Assembly: GCA_031268615.1 (NCBI GenBank)
Contig: JAIRWZ010000095.1
Location: 1-11,537 of the forward strand
Reading direction: 5' to 3'
From: Actinomycetes bacterium
GTDB lineage: Bacteria; Actinomycetota; Coriobacteriia; WRKU01; WQUG01
Length of the DNA stretch: 11,537 nucleotides
Part shown: piece after piece, positions 3,825 through 10,251 of the stretch
Numbering within the stretch: position 1 is the stretch's first letter
How the letters are laid out: every line of letters begins with the position of its first letter
Notes under the pieces: model-generated
Seen by the model: the letters and a program-made list of their open reading frames with translations, nothing else
Told to the model about the DNA's origin: nothing
The model's database searches: none
Position numbers and translations under genes: made by a program

Positions 3825-4651
3825 TGCCTGAATTGCGCGATGACTTTCGTCGGAAGGACAGCTTGCCGTCTGCGGACGCCAAACATCCTGCGGGCGGAAG
3901 GCGTCCTTTCAGGGAGCAATCGGTTTCGTCGATGGACGTACTCCCAAAGATTAATTCGTGGCGGCAATTCCGGGCTTTACTTCGTAAAGATATTGTGATG
4001 GAGCTGCGCACGAAGGAAATGATTACCTCGATGGGCTTGTACGCCTTGCTGGTGCTGGTCATCTATTATGTTGCCTTGTCGCAGGCCGGCGACAACTTTG
4101 ATGTCGGACGCATTGCGGCCGGGCTGCTGTTGCTGGTGATTGTGTTCACCTCGATGTTGGGGCTGAATCGCTCGCTGGTACACGAGCAGGATCAGGGGCA
4201 GCTGGAGGCCTTGTTGTTGTCTCCGGTGGACCGCCCGATTATCTTTTTCGCGAAGGCGCTCACGAATCTGTTGTTTCTGGGGCTGGTCGAGTTGGTGGTC
4301 ACCCCGATTTTTCTGCTCTTTTTCGTGGCGCGGTCAGAATCTGTGCAGTTTGGCCCTGCCTGGATGCTGGTTCTGGCGCTGCTGGTTGGCAGTATCGGGA
4401 TTGCTGGTGTGGGCACCTTGCTGGCTACAATGTCGGTCAACACGAAGGGGAAGGATTTCGTGTTAGCCGTGCTGTTTATACCGGTGATGTATCCTCTGTT
4501 GATGGCGATTATTGCGGCGCTGTCAGCGGTGATTGCTGGTCCTTTAGGTTGGCAGACCGGATATTGGCAGATGTTAGCGGTAGCTGTCGGCTATGATGTG
4601 ATTATGCTGACTGCTGCCTTTGGTTTGTACGAATTTATTCTATCGGTTTGA
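3824..4651 (+). CDS. ccmB: Heme exporter membrane subunit CcmB with N-terminal extension
   Basis: CcmB is the integral membrane partner of CcmA. The family-like part begins near residue 46 (WRQFRALLRKDIVMELR) and contains about six membrane segments, with the conserved stretch LNRSLVHEQDQGQLEALLLS after the second. The 275-aa length exceeds the usual 220-230 because of about 40 N-terminal residues rich in Arg, Ser and Pro. That extension is encoded by a palindromic sequence (3854-3908). The start at 3824 is preferred because it overlaps the ccmA stop (TGATG) behind the G-rich stretch GGGGGTGAG. The alternative ATG at 3932 (Met37) would give a normal-length protein, but its nearest Shine-Dalgarno-like AGGGAG ends 15 nt upstream, which is too far. 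ccmC follows after 25 nt. Confidence 0.92.
   Translation: MPELRDDFRRKDSLPSADAKHPAGGRRPFREQSVSSMDVLPKINSWRQFRALLRKDIVMELRTKEMITSMGLYALLVLVIYYVALSQAGDNFDVGRIAAGLLLLVIVFTSMLGLNRSLVHEQDQGQLEALLLSPVDRPIIFFAKALTNLLFLGLVELVVTPIFLLFFVARSESVQFGPAWMLVLALLVGSIGIAGVGTLLATMSVNTKGKDFVLAVLFIPVMYPLLMAIIAALSAVIAGPLGWQTGYWQMLAVAVGYDVIMLTAAFGLYEFILSV
3854..3908. repeat. Palindromic element at the start of ccmB
   Basis: GGACGCC (3874-3880) pairs perfectly with GGCGTCC (3900-3906). An outer pair, AAGGAC (3854-3859) with GTCCTT (3903-3908), competes for the same right arm. The layout resembles the element in hemD: both have GGACAGC, a GC-rich core followed by GCGGAA, and arms of the form GGACnnC/GnnGTCC. ACCGTAGGG at 3801-3809 may be its left edge, but no matching CCCTACGG right edge is seen. 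If translated from 3824 it encodes residues 11-29 of CcmB. Confidence 0.5.
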
Positions 4652-7064: not shown

Positions 7065-8408
7065 ATGCAACTGACAGTAGTGGGGTTGAGTCATAAGACC
7101 GCGCCGGTTGACATGCGCGAGCGTGTGAGTTTTCCGGCCGATGTGCAAGCTGCGGCGCTGCATGCGCTGCTGGGGCGGACAGGGATGCTGGAAGCGTTGA
7201 TACTATCAACTTGCAACCGTACCGAGGTCTATGTGGTCAGCGACGATGAAAGTGACGGTCCGGCTGAGGTCAGCGCGTTTATCGCGGAATTTCACGGTCT
7301 GGACCTTGTCGGCATGACGCGCTATCTGTATGTGAAAACTGGCGAGGACGTCGTGCGGCATTTGTTCCGCGTGGCGGCGTCGTTGGATTCCATGGTGGTG
7401 GGAGAGGCACAGATTTTAGGGCAACTGAAAGAGGCCTATGACTATGCCTTCAAAGAAGGAGCAACGGCGCGTATTTTCAACAAGCTGTTTCGGGCTTCGT
7501 TTGAAGTGGGGAAAAGGGTACGTAGCGAAACGGCCATTGGTTCGTCAGCCGTCTCTATTTCCTACGCGGCGATTGAGCTTGCGAAGCGTGTGTTTGAGAG
7601 TCTGGAAGGTCGGCGTGTGCTGCTGCTGGGCGCTGGAGAGATGAGCGAGCTGACAGCGACGCATTTGCAGGCAAACGGCGCCGGACAGGTATACGTTGCT
7701 AACCGGACCTTCGCCCGTGCCGAAGAACTGGCGGCGAAGTTTTCAGGTCAGGCTGTGCCCTTCGAGCAGAGATACGAGATATTAAAAAAGGTTGACATTG
7801 TGGTGTCGGCTACAGCCGCCAAAGACTATATCATCACCTATGAGGGTCTGGCAGCTGCTGTTCTGCGTCGTCGAGACCCCTTGTTCATGATTGACATTGC
7901 CGTTCCGCGCGACATCGACCCGCGCTGTGGCGAATACCGCAACGTGTACGTGAGCGACGTGGATGCGTTAGATGGCGTAGTAGCGGCCAATAGAGAAGAA
8001 CGTATGCGGGAGGCGCGACGCGCCGAAGGGATTATTGAGGAAGAAATTACTGGTTTTGAACACTGGCTGGAAATTATGGAAGTTGAACCGACCATTGCTG
8101 CTTTGCGTGAGCAGGCAGAGACCGTGCGGGAGGCCGAGTTGGAGCGTGCATTGAAACGTCTGGGACATTTGAGCGAGGTTGACCGAGAGACAGGTCAAAA
8201 ACTAACCCAGTCCATTACGAATAAAATGCTGCACTATCCCACCCGCAAGCTGCGCGAAGCCAGCGGAGGGCGCAAAGGAATCGCGACGATTGAGACGGCA
8301 CGGTATTTGTATGGGCTGGAGGATAAGGCGGACGGGCAGCAGGGCTTTCGCCTGATACAATCGCTGTTAGGGCGCCGCCCCCGCAGCGCTGACGTGGACG
8401 ATTTATGA
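7065..8408 (+). CDS. hemA: Glutamyl-tRNA reductase
   Basis: HemA reduces glutamyl-tRNA(Glu) to glutamate-1-semialdehyde with NADPH, the committed step of C5-pathway tetrapyrrole synthesis in the cytoplasm. The 447-aa protein shows VVGLSHKTAPVDMRE near the start, the catalytic Cys50 in STCNRTEVY (48-56), conserved His99, VGEAQILGQ (112-120), the NADPH-binding GAGEMSELT (189-197) with ANRT (212-215), and a C-terminal helical dimerisation domain (about 330-447). Length and order are those of a complete enzyme. GAGG at 7053-7056 precedes the ATG by 8 nt. Its stop lies 17 nt before the preferred hemC start, so the two are translated together. Regulation may act through the leader hairpin, the upstream palindrome, or the HemX-like protein encoded upstream. 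Confidence 0.98.
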   Translation: MQLTVVGLSHKTAPVDMRERVSFPADVQAAALHALLGRTGMLEALILSTCNRTEVYVVSDDESDGPAEVSAFIAEFHGLDLVGMTRYLYVKTGEDVVRHLFRVAASLDSMVVGEAQILGQLKEAYDYAFKEGATARIFNKLFRASFEVGKRVRSETAIGSSAVSISYAAIELAKRVFESLEGRRVLLLGAGEMSELTATHLQANGAGQVYVANRTFARAEELAAKFSGQAVPFEQRYEILKKVDIVVSATAAKDYIITYEGLAAAVLRRRDPLFMIDIAVPRDIDPRCGEYRNVYVSDVDALDGVVAANREERMREARRAEGIIEEEITGFEHWLEIMEVEPTIAALREQAETVREAELERALKRLGHLSEVDRETGQKLTQSITNKMLHYPTRKLREASGGRKGIATIETARYLYGLEDKADGQQGFRLIQSLLGRRPRSADVDDL

Positions 8409-8425
8409 CAGAAGAAGGGGCGCAC

Positions 8426-9370
8426 ATGAATACACGCACGAAACTGACTATCGGAACTCGCGGCAGCAAGCTGGCGCTGTGGCAATCGCGTTATGTCGCC
8501 AGTCTGCTCAGTGAACAGACTGGTCTGCCGGTCGAGCTGGAGATTATCAAGACCACGGGCGACAAGATACTCGACGTACCGCTGGCCAAAGTGGGAGGCA
8601 AAGGGCTGTTCACCAAAGAGCTGGAAGTCGCTCTGCTGGACGGACGGGTGGACTTGGCAGTGCATTCGATGAAAGACGTGCCGACCGAGTTGCCTGAAGG
8701 TTGTGTGCTGGCCGGTATGCCGGCTCGTGAAGATGCACGGGACGTGCTGGTGTCGCACCACGATGAGGATTTGCTGACTCTGGCAGACGGCGCGCGCGTG
8801 GGCACCAGTTCGCTGCGTCGTATAGCTCAACTGCGCAGTCTGCGTCCTGACATCGAAATCGTTGATGTGCGTGGCAATCTGGACACGCGTATGCGCAAAG
8901 CCGAGGAAGGCGAAGTTGATGCCGTTCTGTTGGCGGCAGCCGGTATTCGCCGCATGGGTTGGAAGACGCGTATCAGTTCGTATATTTCGGTTGAACAGAT
9001 GGTGAGCGCGGTCGGTCAAGGCGCCATTGGTATCGAGATTCGCAAGGATGACAATTTCATGAAGGAGGCGTGCGAAGCATTGAGCGACGCGCCGACCCTG
9101 CTGTGTGTTAACGCGGAGCGCGTAGTGATGAAAACTCTGGAAGGAGGGTGTCAGGTACCCATTGGCGCCTGGTGCAGGCTCGTTGATACGGGGAAGCGGG
9201 ACGAAGCGTTGCTCATGGATGCCATGGTTGGCTCGGTGGATGGAACGCGAATCCTGCGCACGCAACGTCGCGGGGACGTGACGGAGCCGGAAGCTCTGGG
9301 CTTGGCTGTGGTTGCCGACTTGCGCGCTCAGGGCGCCGACGAGATACTGGCAGAAATACGGGTAGAGTGA
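8426..9370 (+). CDS. hemC: Hydroxymethylbilane synthase (porphobilinogen deaminase)
   Basis: HemC joins four porphobilinogen molecules into hydroxymethylbilane using a dipyrromethane cofactor built on a cysteine. The motifs below are numbered from the longer start at 8405: IGTRGSKLALWQ (16-27), HSMKDVPTE (87-95) with catalytic Asp91, GTSSLRRIAQL (133-143), DVRGNLDTRM (154-163) and LEGGCQVPIG (245-254) with cofactor Cys249. The enzyme is complete. The start at 8426 is preferred because AAGGGG (8415-8420) lies 5 nt upstream and the resulting N-terminus is of usual length. The ATG at 8405 overlaps the hemA stop (ATGA) but has no Shine-Dalgarno site and would add 7 residues. The stop overlaps the GTG of hemD. 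Confidence 0.96.
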   Translation: MNTRTKLTIGTRGSKLALWQSRYVASLLSEQTGLPVELEIIKTTGDKILDVPLAKVGGKGLFTKELEVALLDGRVDLAVHSMKDVPTELPEGCVLAGMPAREDARDVLVSHHDEDLLTLADGARVGTSSLRRIAQLRSLRPDIEIVDVRGNLDTRMRKAEEGEVDAVLLAAAGIRRMGWKTRISSYISVEQMVSAVGQGAIGIEIRKDDNFMKEACEALSDAPTLLCVNAERVVMKTLEGGCQVPIGAWCRLVDTGKRDEALLMDAMVGSVDGTRILRTQRRGDVTEPEALGLAVVADLRAQGADEILAEIRVE

Positions 9371-10251
9371 CCCGCACCATCATACTGACCCGCCGTCGCG
9401 AACAAAGCTCCGAGTTAGCGGCAGCCTTAACCGCGCATGGCGTGTGCGTCCTGTATTTTCCGACAATCGCTCTGGCTCCCCCGCCTGATGAAGCGCCGAT
9501 TCGCGCGGCGCTTGGGCACTTGGATAGCTACGACTGGCTTTTATTTACCAGCGCCAACGCGGTGGAACGATTTTTCCGGTATATGACCGTAGGGACACCT
9601 TCTGACCGGGAAAGTCAATTGGTGTCCGAACGGACAGCAATCTGCCCGCAGAGCGTGCGGAAAGCTGTCCCTACGGGTTGTGCCCCTCGTGTTGCCGCCG
9701 TGGGGACGGCGACGGCTGCGGCCTTAGAACGGCGGGGTATTCGTGTTGATATGGTTCCTCAGGATTTTCGCGCGGAAGGACTGATTGCTGAGTTTGAGCG
9801 AATTGCCGCGGCTCACGATACCTCGTCTACGGGAAATGTATCCGGGCAGGTATCGGCGCAGGCGAGGGCGGTACGGATATTGCTTCCCCGTGCCCTCAAA
9901 GCGCGTGAGATACTGCCCGAACAGTTGAAAGCTCTGGGTTTTACGGTTGACGTAGCGCCCGTGTATCAGACCTTGTGCGCGACGCCGACACCCGATGAAT
10001 TGGCAGAGCTGACGATGACAGATGGTAGCCCCGCGGCGGACGGCATTGTCTTTGCCTCGCCGTCGGCGGCGCGCAATTTTGCCGACATTGTGAATGGTGC
10101 GGGTATGGACGCACTCACTTATTTGAAAGCGTTGGACATAATCGCCATCGGCGAGGTGACGGCAGAGACTGTGCGGGAGCTGGGCGTTCGCCCCATCGTT
10201 GCCGCTGCCGCTTCGGTAGGAGGCATTGTGTCGGCCCTAGGGCTGGGGTGA
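9367..10251 (+). CDS. hemD: Uroporphyrinogen-III synthase with two insertions
   Basis: HemD closes hydroxymethylbilane with inversion of ring D to give uroporphyrinogen III. Family marks are TIILTRRREQSSELAAAL at the start, WLLFTSANAVERFF (57-70), VAAVGTATAAAL (109-120), ILLPRALKAREILPEQL (171-187), VAPVYQT (196-202), IVFASPSAARNF (227-238) and AIGEVTAETVRELG (260-273). The protein is 294 aa against the usual 240-260. The excess sits in two stretches that interrupt the fold between conserved blocks: about 74-104, encoded by a 90-bp palindromic element, and about 150-168, which holds an 8-bp inverted repeat. Both lie where loops are expected and keep the frame, so the enzyme is probably active. 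The GTG start overlaps the hemC stop (GTGA). The end overlaps the convergent AI-2E gene by 15 nt. Confidence 0.93.
   Translation: MTRTIILTRRREQSSELAAALTAHGVCVLYFPTIALAPPPDEAPIRAALGHLDSYDWLLFTSANAVERFFRYMTVGTPSDRESQLVSERTAICPQSVRKAVPTGCAPRVAAVGTATAAALERRGIRVDMVPQDFRAEGLIAEFERIAAAHDTSSTGNVSGQVSAQARAVRILLPRALKAREILPEQLKALGFTVDVAPVYQTLCATPTPDELAELTMTDGSPAADGIVFASPSAARNFADIVNGAGMDALTYLKALDIIAIGEVTAETVRELGVRPIVAAAASVGGIVSALGLG
9587..9676. repeat. 90-bp compound palindromic element inside hemD
   Basis: The ends CCGTAGGGACA (9587-9597) and TGTCCCTACGG (9666-9676) are perfect 11-bp inverted repeats. Inside are two hairpins. One pairs GGACACC (9593-9599) with GGTGTCC (9621-9627), with inner TGAC/GTCA. 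The other pairs GGACAGC (9632-9638) with GCTGTCC (9664-9670), with inner CCGCA/TGCGG (9646-9650, 9656-9660). The outer and inner stems share bases, so they compete. The length is a multiple of three with no stop in the hemD frame, and it encodes residues 74-104. It resembles a non-autonomous palindromic repeat of the kind that can settle in coding DNA. Confidence 0.8.
9816..9855. repeat. Second inverted repeat inside hemD
   Basis: CGATACCT (9816-9823) and AGGTATCG (9848-9855) form a perfect 8-bp inverted repeat around 24 nt, with only a weak inner CGG/CCG pair. It encodes residues about 150-163, a Ser/Thr/Gln-rich stretch missing from typical HemD proteins. It may be another, more eroded palindromic insertion. 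Confidence 0.5.

Follow-up and report, generated by a model that had tools for sequence, protein, structure and literature searches.

A palindromic repeat dimer of the GTAG REP type lies in frame within hemD of a Coriobacteriia genome

The hemD locus and its palindromic insert

The window, that is the whole 11,537-nt stretch of DNA analysed here, carries on its forward strand an ORF resembling hemA, followed by hemC and hemD, the latter containing a palindromic element in its 5' half (Table 1). Named relatives of HemC among its best 120 matches are Actinomycetes, Actinomycetia, Actinobacteria, Coriobacteriia or Coriobacteriales bacteria. An earlier note on this DNA had described a 90-bp palindrome in hemD, stop-free and bounded by perfect 11-bp terminal inverted repeats enclosing two hairpins. 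The terminal repeats and both inner hairpins are present on direct reading of the sequence, 9587–9676 is free of stops in the hemD frame, and a repeat search extends the terminal arms to 15 nt at 93% identity. The length of exactly 90 bp fits this stretch as described, but the repeated unit, running from GTAG to CTAC, measures 86 bp. Among 17 head-to-head dimers of the same kind found in the genome (see below), complementarity beyond the GTAG tags amounts to 2 bp only in the hemD copy and in a copy on contig C23, to 1 bp in six and to none in nine. As 15 of the 17 have 0–1 bp, the outer CC/GG of the hemD copy is probably coincidental, and 86 bp describes the mobile unit better than 90 bp.

Table 1 Features of the window and in-frame copies of the element elsewhere in the host genome (own contigs, C numbers)
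Feature	Position	Strand	Details
Decayed head-to-head dimer, same family	3852–3910	-	5' part of ccmB ORF; 22.2 bits (3873–3910, minus), 12.7 bits (3852–3872, plus)
ORF resembling hemA (named by eye)	7065–8408	+	Precedes hemC
hemC	8405–9370	+	Precedes hemD
hemD, uroporphyrinogen-III synthase, host gene	9367–10251	+	ORF 294 aa; Pfam HEM4 E 6e-51; structure model
Left 11-bp terminal inverted arm CCGTAGGGACA	9587–9597	+	Outer two bases probably host sequence
Head-to-head REP dimer (REPIN), GTAG...CTAC	9589–9674	+	86 bp, in frame in hemD, residues ~74–103; accepted in-frame element
REP unit 1	9589–9628	+	Covariance model R1, 48.7 bits; fold
Unit 1, GTAG tag	9589–9592		
Unit 1, basal stem GGACACC/GGTGTCC	9593–9599 / 9621–9627		Upper stem TGAC/GTCA
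Unit 1, internal loop TT + TT	9600–9601 + 9619–9620		C-A mismatch widens it to 3 nt
Spacer between units	9629–9630	+	2 nt; ~19 nt in several other dimers
REP unit 2, inverted	9631–9674	-	Covariance model R1, 52.1 bits
Unit 2, GTAG tag	9674–9671		
Unit 2, basal stem GGACAGC/GCTGTCC	9670–9664 / 9638–9632		TT/TT internal loop (AA on plus strand)
Right 11-bp terminal inverted arm TGTCCCTACGG	9666–9676	-	Direct reading of sequence
Accepted in-frame element	C12		Dihydropteroate synthase/HPPK fusion (folP)
Accepted in-frame elements, two	C33		TsaB-RimI-TsaD fusion, one per linker
Accepted in-frame element	C36		DUF3866
Accepted in-frame element	C59		CarA
Accepted in-frame element	C7		CoaE
Accepted in-frame element	C90		Acyl-CoA synthetase
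Accepted in-frame element	C119		MetH-like protein, between S-methyltransferase and pterin domains
Accepted in-frame element	C10		Double ECF ATPase; insert separates the two ABC domains
Accepted in-frame element	C142		PrmC
Accepted in-frame element	C109		GMP_PMI/ManC
Accepted in-frame element	C94		PRK11445-type FAD-binding protein

In both hemD units an exact GTAG abuts the hairpin foot (distance 0), and the 7-bp basal stem leads to a bulge, of 3 nt in unit 1 and of 2 nt in unit 2, and then to the upper stem; each departs from the covariance model by two non-standard pairs. The predicted RNA minimum free energy of 9587–9676 is -46.6 kcal/mol, compared to -26.9 ± 3.2 in shuffled sequences (z -6.2), and with DNA parameters the z score is -5.7; none of 200 shuffles was as good in either case. 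Of the alternative folds proposed earlier, a closed three-way structure and two side hairpins, the three-way form is the predicted RNA form, combining a 6-bp outer stem with both hairpins, whereas the DNA optimum is another fold that uses the full 11-bp outer stem and other inner pairs.

The interval F69–G113 of the encoded protein, which spans the insert, comprises 43 residues compared to a median of 22 in 119 listed HemD homologs. A short loop (≤24 residues) is found at this position in 115 of the 119, so the insert is not a conserved feature of distant HemD proteins, and at least 30 residues in four (P0006, P0044, P0058 and P0070). In all ten family or order relatives that could be aligned the insert is absent, the HemD search giving no match in three other order members. 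Among the matches listed (the best 120 of 467) the closest HemD proteins, the window's own copy aside, are 43% identical by E-value, followed by one at 46%, and none is near-identical; a HemD search of genome contigs yielded one distant locus, from Nitrospirae (32% identical). No strain of the same species was found, and the insert-free hemD is therefore known from relatives, with the exact DNA junction unseen. The ~31 added residues given earlier match the ~30 that the element spans (74–103), but the net gain over relatives is ~21, so that some native loop residues must have been lost or replaced. In an AlphaFold2 model based on a 22-sequence alignment (mean pLDDT 87.4), residues 78–103 are the sole stretch below 50 and sit between helix 63–74, which contains NAVERFF, and strand 108–111; residues 151–170 are also less certain, with block means of 64. 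The best Foldseek match of the model is a solved HemD structure (4es6; E 3e-15, TM 0.63/0.73). As pLDDT below 50 is confined to the insert and the remainder resembles a solved HemD, the insert is most simply read as a floppy loop on an intact HemD fold; translation of the element probably yields a disordered loop without harm to HemD.

A repeat family with copies inside genes

The earlier note had suggested that the element belongs to a repeat family, with a second genomic copy as the check. The examined host genome (1.07 Mb in 157 contigs, 62% complete) returned 21 blastn matches to the hemD element, itself included, and at least 65 matches at E ≤ 0.001 to a covariance model built from 42 units, with 150 of 624 candidates scored. 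Sequence patterns were enriched over a reversed control (61 versus 32 matches for one pattern, 101 versus 19 for a second), as were hits in a structure-only scan (24 versus 3). By blastn, by covariance model and by further copies in frame, the hemD element belongs to a family of repeats present in this genome. The model had no match in 18 relatives, eight of them of the same family, with at most 150 candidates scored per genome, and in a phylum-wide sample run with stricter filters and 16 candidates scored, four of 395 other genomes had one match each (best 30.9 bits). As far as sampled, the GTAG repeat family is thus specific to this lineage.

The family unit consists of an unpaired GTAG and a hairpin (GTAGGGAC hairpins) with a 7-bp stem, usually a TT/TT internal loop, and an upper stem. 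Across copies the left unit follows the plan GTAG-GGACACC-TT-CCGACC..GGTCGG-TT-GGTGTCC-G; the right unit is a similar hairpin, inverted, at a spacing of 0–3 nt, ~19 nt or more. In an alignment of 42 units, from which, as from the model, seven of 49 units were excluded (six AA-variant, one decayed), 94.5% of cells are standard pairs and nine of 13 pairs have changes on both sides, values each reached by none of 500 shuffles; further pair types were reached by three of 500, and sliding the partners left at most 46% paired in all six slides. Among 64 units tested, 44 have an exact GTAG or GTGG tag, 46 a 7-bp basal stem (GU allowed) and 44 an exact TT/TT, and just 31 combine the tag and the 7-bp stem with a 2x2 loop that the upper stem follows immediately. 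On average 6.67 of seven basal pairs are kept in units within genes (n=21, including those of C23) and 6.53 in the others (n=43). The unit structure is constrained as nucleic acid, and in-gene and other units keep it about equally.

A total of 66 units make up 46 elements: 27 singles, 17 head-to-head dimers with tags outside (including the hemD copy, and 17 of the 18 two-unit elements), one tail-to-tail dimer and one three-unit cluster. T precedes the tag directly in 37 of 62 outer flanks, with T making up 21% of the DNA in the own contigs. Other GTAG-tagged perfect hairpins, of the GGCAAGTTGA, GGTAAGTTGG and GGCGGGCATT types, occur on contigs C39, C150, C102, C152 and C154, and some of these adjoin or nest within GTAG elements. 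Within the window, the decayed dimer in ccmB lies upstream of an internal Met codon (3932) and would form either an N-terminal extension of CcmB or a leader, and positions 1–35, at the contig end, resemble a truncated unit. Contigs C1, C30, C56, C76 and C123 likewise carry units within 150 bases of an end, so that the repeats have probably contributed to breaks in the assembly.

Of the 46 elements, 41 were scorable with a codon model trained on the genes of the window, the remaining five being too close to a contig end. By this model eleven are in frame through the element, 15 have coding sequence on one side and nine on neither, four on both sides of one strand in different phase and one on opposite strands, while one (C51:5291) keeps one frame on both sides with stops inside. 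Based on the codon model and protein families combined, we accepted 13 of the 46 elements as in frame within recognisable genes (Table 1), which extends the in-frame insertion noted for hemD to other proteins. These are the 11 codon-model calls minus C58:3007 and C77:745, preceded by just 5 and 24 open residues, plus C10:6569, C94, C109 and C142, which were counted because family matches flank the insert or run across it; the codon model had called these neither side, one side, one side and opposite strands, respectively. An element at C23:428 is in frame at the extreme C-terminus of a permease and stands outside the 13, though its two units were grouped with those in genes. In CoaE and DUF3866 the Pfam match is confined to the part downstream of the insert, the upstream part resting on the codon model and, for DUF3866, also on alignment: the DUF3866 proteins of G003 and G004 (68% and 65% identical) are without 35 residues spanning the 28 encoded by the dimer, and two of the eight relatives aligned (L200 and L201) carry other residues of their own in this region. 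In the folP fusion the pterin-binding match falls into two parts; the later one begins with profile position 73 about 20 residues after the unit, and the stretch between resembles a decayed second half. Apart from the REP insert, the PrmC ORF (L185, C142:260-1447) contains another additional stretch, in which the peptide GNAASD is repeated.

With 90% of the window coding and 13 of the 46 elements (28%) in genes, the family is still depleted from genes, as expected if most gene insertions are lost. The elements are stop-poor to a modest excess over shuffles: the 16 dimers examined have 3.38 of six frames open compared to 2.69 (maximum 3.31), and the 27 singles 4.93 compared to 4.44 (maximum 4.85). 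The hemD dimer itself is open in two of the six frames only.

Probable origin and movement of the element

We consider it probable, at roughly 85%, that the hemD element is a REPIN of a lineage-restricted GTAG REP family, moved by a TnpA-REP (RAYT) enzyme and kept where tolerated. Such an HUH enzyme, encoded in trans, would read the two hairpins as single-stranded DNA and move or copy the dimer elsewhere, frequently to positions preceded by a T. Insertions into genes would mostly be harmful and lost, and those kept would be in phase, stop-free and situated in loops or inter-domain linkers; the insertion in hemD would have lengthened the loop between helix 63–74 and strand 108–111. Since no Y1 transposase was found in the genome's own contigs (no Y1_Tnp, PF01797, candidate in an assembly missing ~38% of the genome), we infer the mobiliser. 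PF07282 is likewise absent from these contigs. PF01797 was positive in nine of 39 genomes searched, giving 19 Y1_Tnp loci in relatives; exact GTAGGG[AG]C was present in the fetched flanks of none of the 19. Seven of these loci were scanned for repeats, and in six the gene is flanked on either side by inverted repeats that differ in sequence from the GTAG family. These flanking repeats contain GGGGAC in L123, L125, L128 and L129, GGGACGG in L130, and are of another sequence in L121.

A further-reaching reading, which we regard as possible yet on balance doubtful, is that this REPIN family is adapted to coding sequence as a ready-made disordered loop or linker, with the hemD loop as a recurrent landing pad. 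Insertion beside a T would then tend to set GTAG at a codon boundary, so that copies read V-G-T ... V-P-(T). Readable entries are V-G-T in eight of nine cases and exits V-P-(T) in eight of 11 (accepted genes plus C23, the decayed exits of C12 and C23 omitted). The corresponding phase bias (P 0.02 and 0.009) is post hoc, with counts made by eye and entry and exit phases not independent. In-gene dimers of 83, 83, 86 and 104 bp would be phase-neutral with one added base, but the 99- and 100-bp dimers are exceptions. Repeats of a second kind also bear on the landing pad. CGTC-type repeats such as CGTCATGCCGGGCTTGACCCGGCATC occur seven times in the genome (L190–L196) versus none in the reversed control, and one of them (L190, C33:1124-1149) lies in the open frame of the TsaB-RimI linker and adjoins a GTAG unit. 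The relative closest by HemC has a HemD (P0003) whose residues 79–87, at the hemD loop position, read RHSGLDPES, the peptide encoded by a CGTC-type repeat of contig C45; P0003 and P0122 have the same longest contig (5,001 bp) and are thus probably on one contig. This hints that unrelated repeats have entered the hemD loop on more than one occasion, P0003 being known as a protein alone. If true, a coding-adapted REPIN family would be the counterpart of the Rickettsia palindromic element phenomenon in another phylum.

It is improbable that the element is a MITE of the classical sort, in which a non-autonomous remnant of a DDE-transposase IS is mobilised via its terminal inverted repeats. The short terminal inverted repeats, the lack of a gene inside and the many copies in the genome would fit such an origin, but a target duplication of ≥2 nt directly at the ends was found in none of the 17 head-to-head dimers. 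Movement of the IS200/IS605 type is not known to leave a target duplication. Furthermore, 27 of the 46 elements consist of one hairpin that carries the same tag, which identifies the hairpin as the unit rather than a pair of ends, and DDE_Tnp_1 (PF01609), one DDE family, is absent from the contigs of this incomplete genome. Less probable still is a selected RNA structure of the hem operon mRNA, controlling processing or translation and situated in hemD by chance. The RNA fold is very stable and many REPs have been proposed to act as RNA elements (PMC3733652), but the element also occurs in unrelated genes and outside genes, is missing from hemD of the ten aligned relatives, and a scan of the window gave no Rfam family at gathering score. 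An ancestral, lineage-specific HemD loop that became palindromic through chance of codons is effectively refuted in spite of the variable HemD loop length, as the DNA matches at 20 other places in the genome and covariation across copies cannot stem from hemD coding constraint.

Comparison with known palindromic repeats

The REPIN reading is drawn from published REP marks: a GTAG tag, a hairpin with a stem bulge and head-to-head dimers. For REPs with long hairpins the published rule is a GTAG or GTGG tag 0–2 nt from the foot, at least seven paired nt, a bulge of 1–3 nt and an additional stem (PMC6006769). With the GTAG-tagged REP superfamily (PMC3733652) the hemD family shares the unpaired GTAG at one end, the hairpin, the occurrence as singles and mostly head-to-head dimers, and in-frame copies. 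Dimer spacers in that superfamily range from 1 to 100 bp, which includes the 2 nt of hemD, and our family is likened to its 24 families by anatomy and not by consensus sequence. The tyrosine transposases flanked by TIRs described in the same paper resemble the arrangement at L123, L125 and L128–L130. In Pseudomonas fluorescens SBW25 the REP doublet is likewise the replicating unit and singlets are remnants, although REPs there were analysed in extragenic space (PMC3116915), whereas 13 of 46 elements were accepted inside genes here. The E. coli REPs of TnpA-REP share GTAG and an imperfect palindrome with a conserved two-mismatch stem bulge, and the enzyme needs both tag and bulge for cleavage (PMC8266576); their bulge is AA-GC rather than mostly TT-TT, and E. 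coli has TnpA-REP while our contigs, 62% complete, yielded no such gene. Crystals have been obtained of REP-derived oligonucleotides that carry double T-T mismatches (PMC7709200), but their TT forms the centre of the palindrome, here the stem bulge.

In-frame palindromic insertions are best known from Rickettsia. As an analogy for in-frame tolerance, the earlier comparison to these elements stands, with 13 of 46 elements in genes; in anatomy our element comes closest to GTAG-tagged REPs and their head-to-head dimers (REPINs), and not to the Rickettsia palindromic element, with which it was compared by length, tag and mode of insertion. Rickettsia palindromic elements are also palindromes inserted in frame in unrelated genes, but are ~150 bp long with a conserved peptide (PMC10969869), compared to 86 bp in hemD, and RPE-4 and RPE-6 have been placed among the CGTC-tagged REPs (PMC3733652), while the hemD element is GTAG-tagged.

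No report of a GTAG REP family in Actinomycetota was found in the literature searched, subscription papers being mostly beyond reach, and neither PMC3733652 nor PMC6006769 uses the word "Actinobacteria" in its main text. We describe a REP/REPIN family of a distant phylum in frame in core genes, including hemD, carA, folP, a metH-like gene, prmC, coaE and a tsaB-rimI-tsaD fusion. New loops and linkers of proteins may thus plausibly arise from REP elements beyond the groups where this has been reported. The finding is also a warning that family-specific "insertions" of enzymes in such genomes can be repeat DNA, and the set of in-gene copies makes target choice versus selection testable as the cause of the reading phase. 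The GTAG tag, head-to-head dimers, RAYT association and intragenic copies have all been published, GTAG and CGTC REPs being found inside genes of several species, with the highest numbers in O. terrae and R. conorii, and in-gene dimers or groups encoding 20–30 residues (PMC3733652). In-frame intragenic REPs as described there are accordingly not new; what is new here is the family itself, which is restricted to its lineage.
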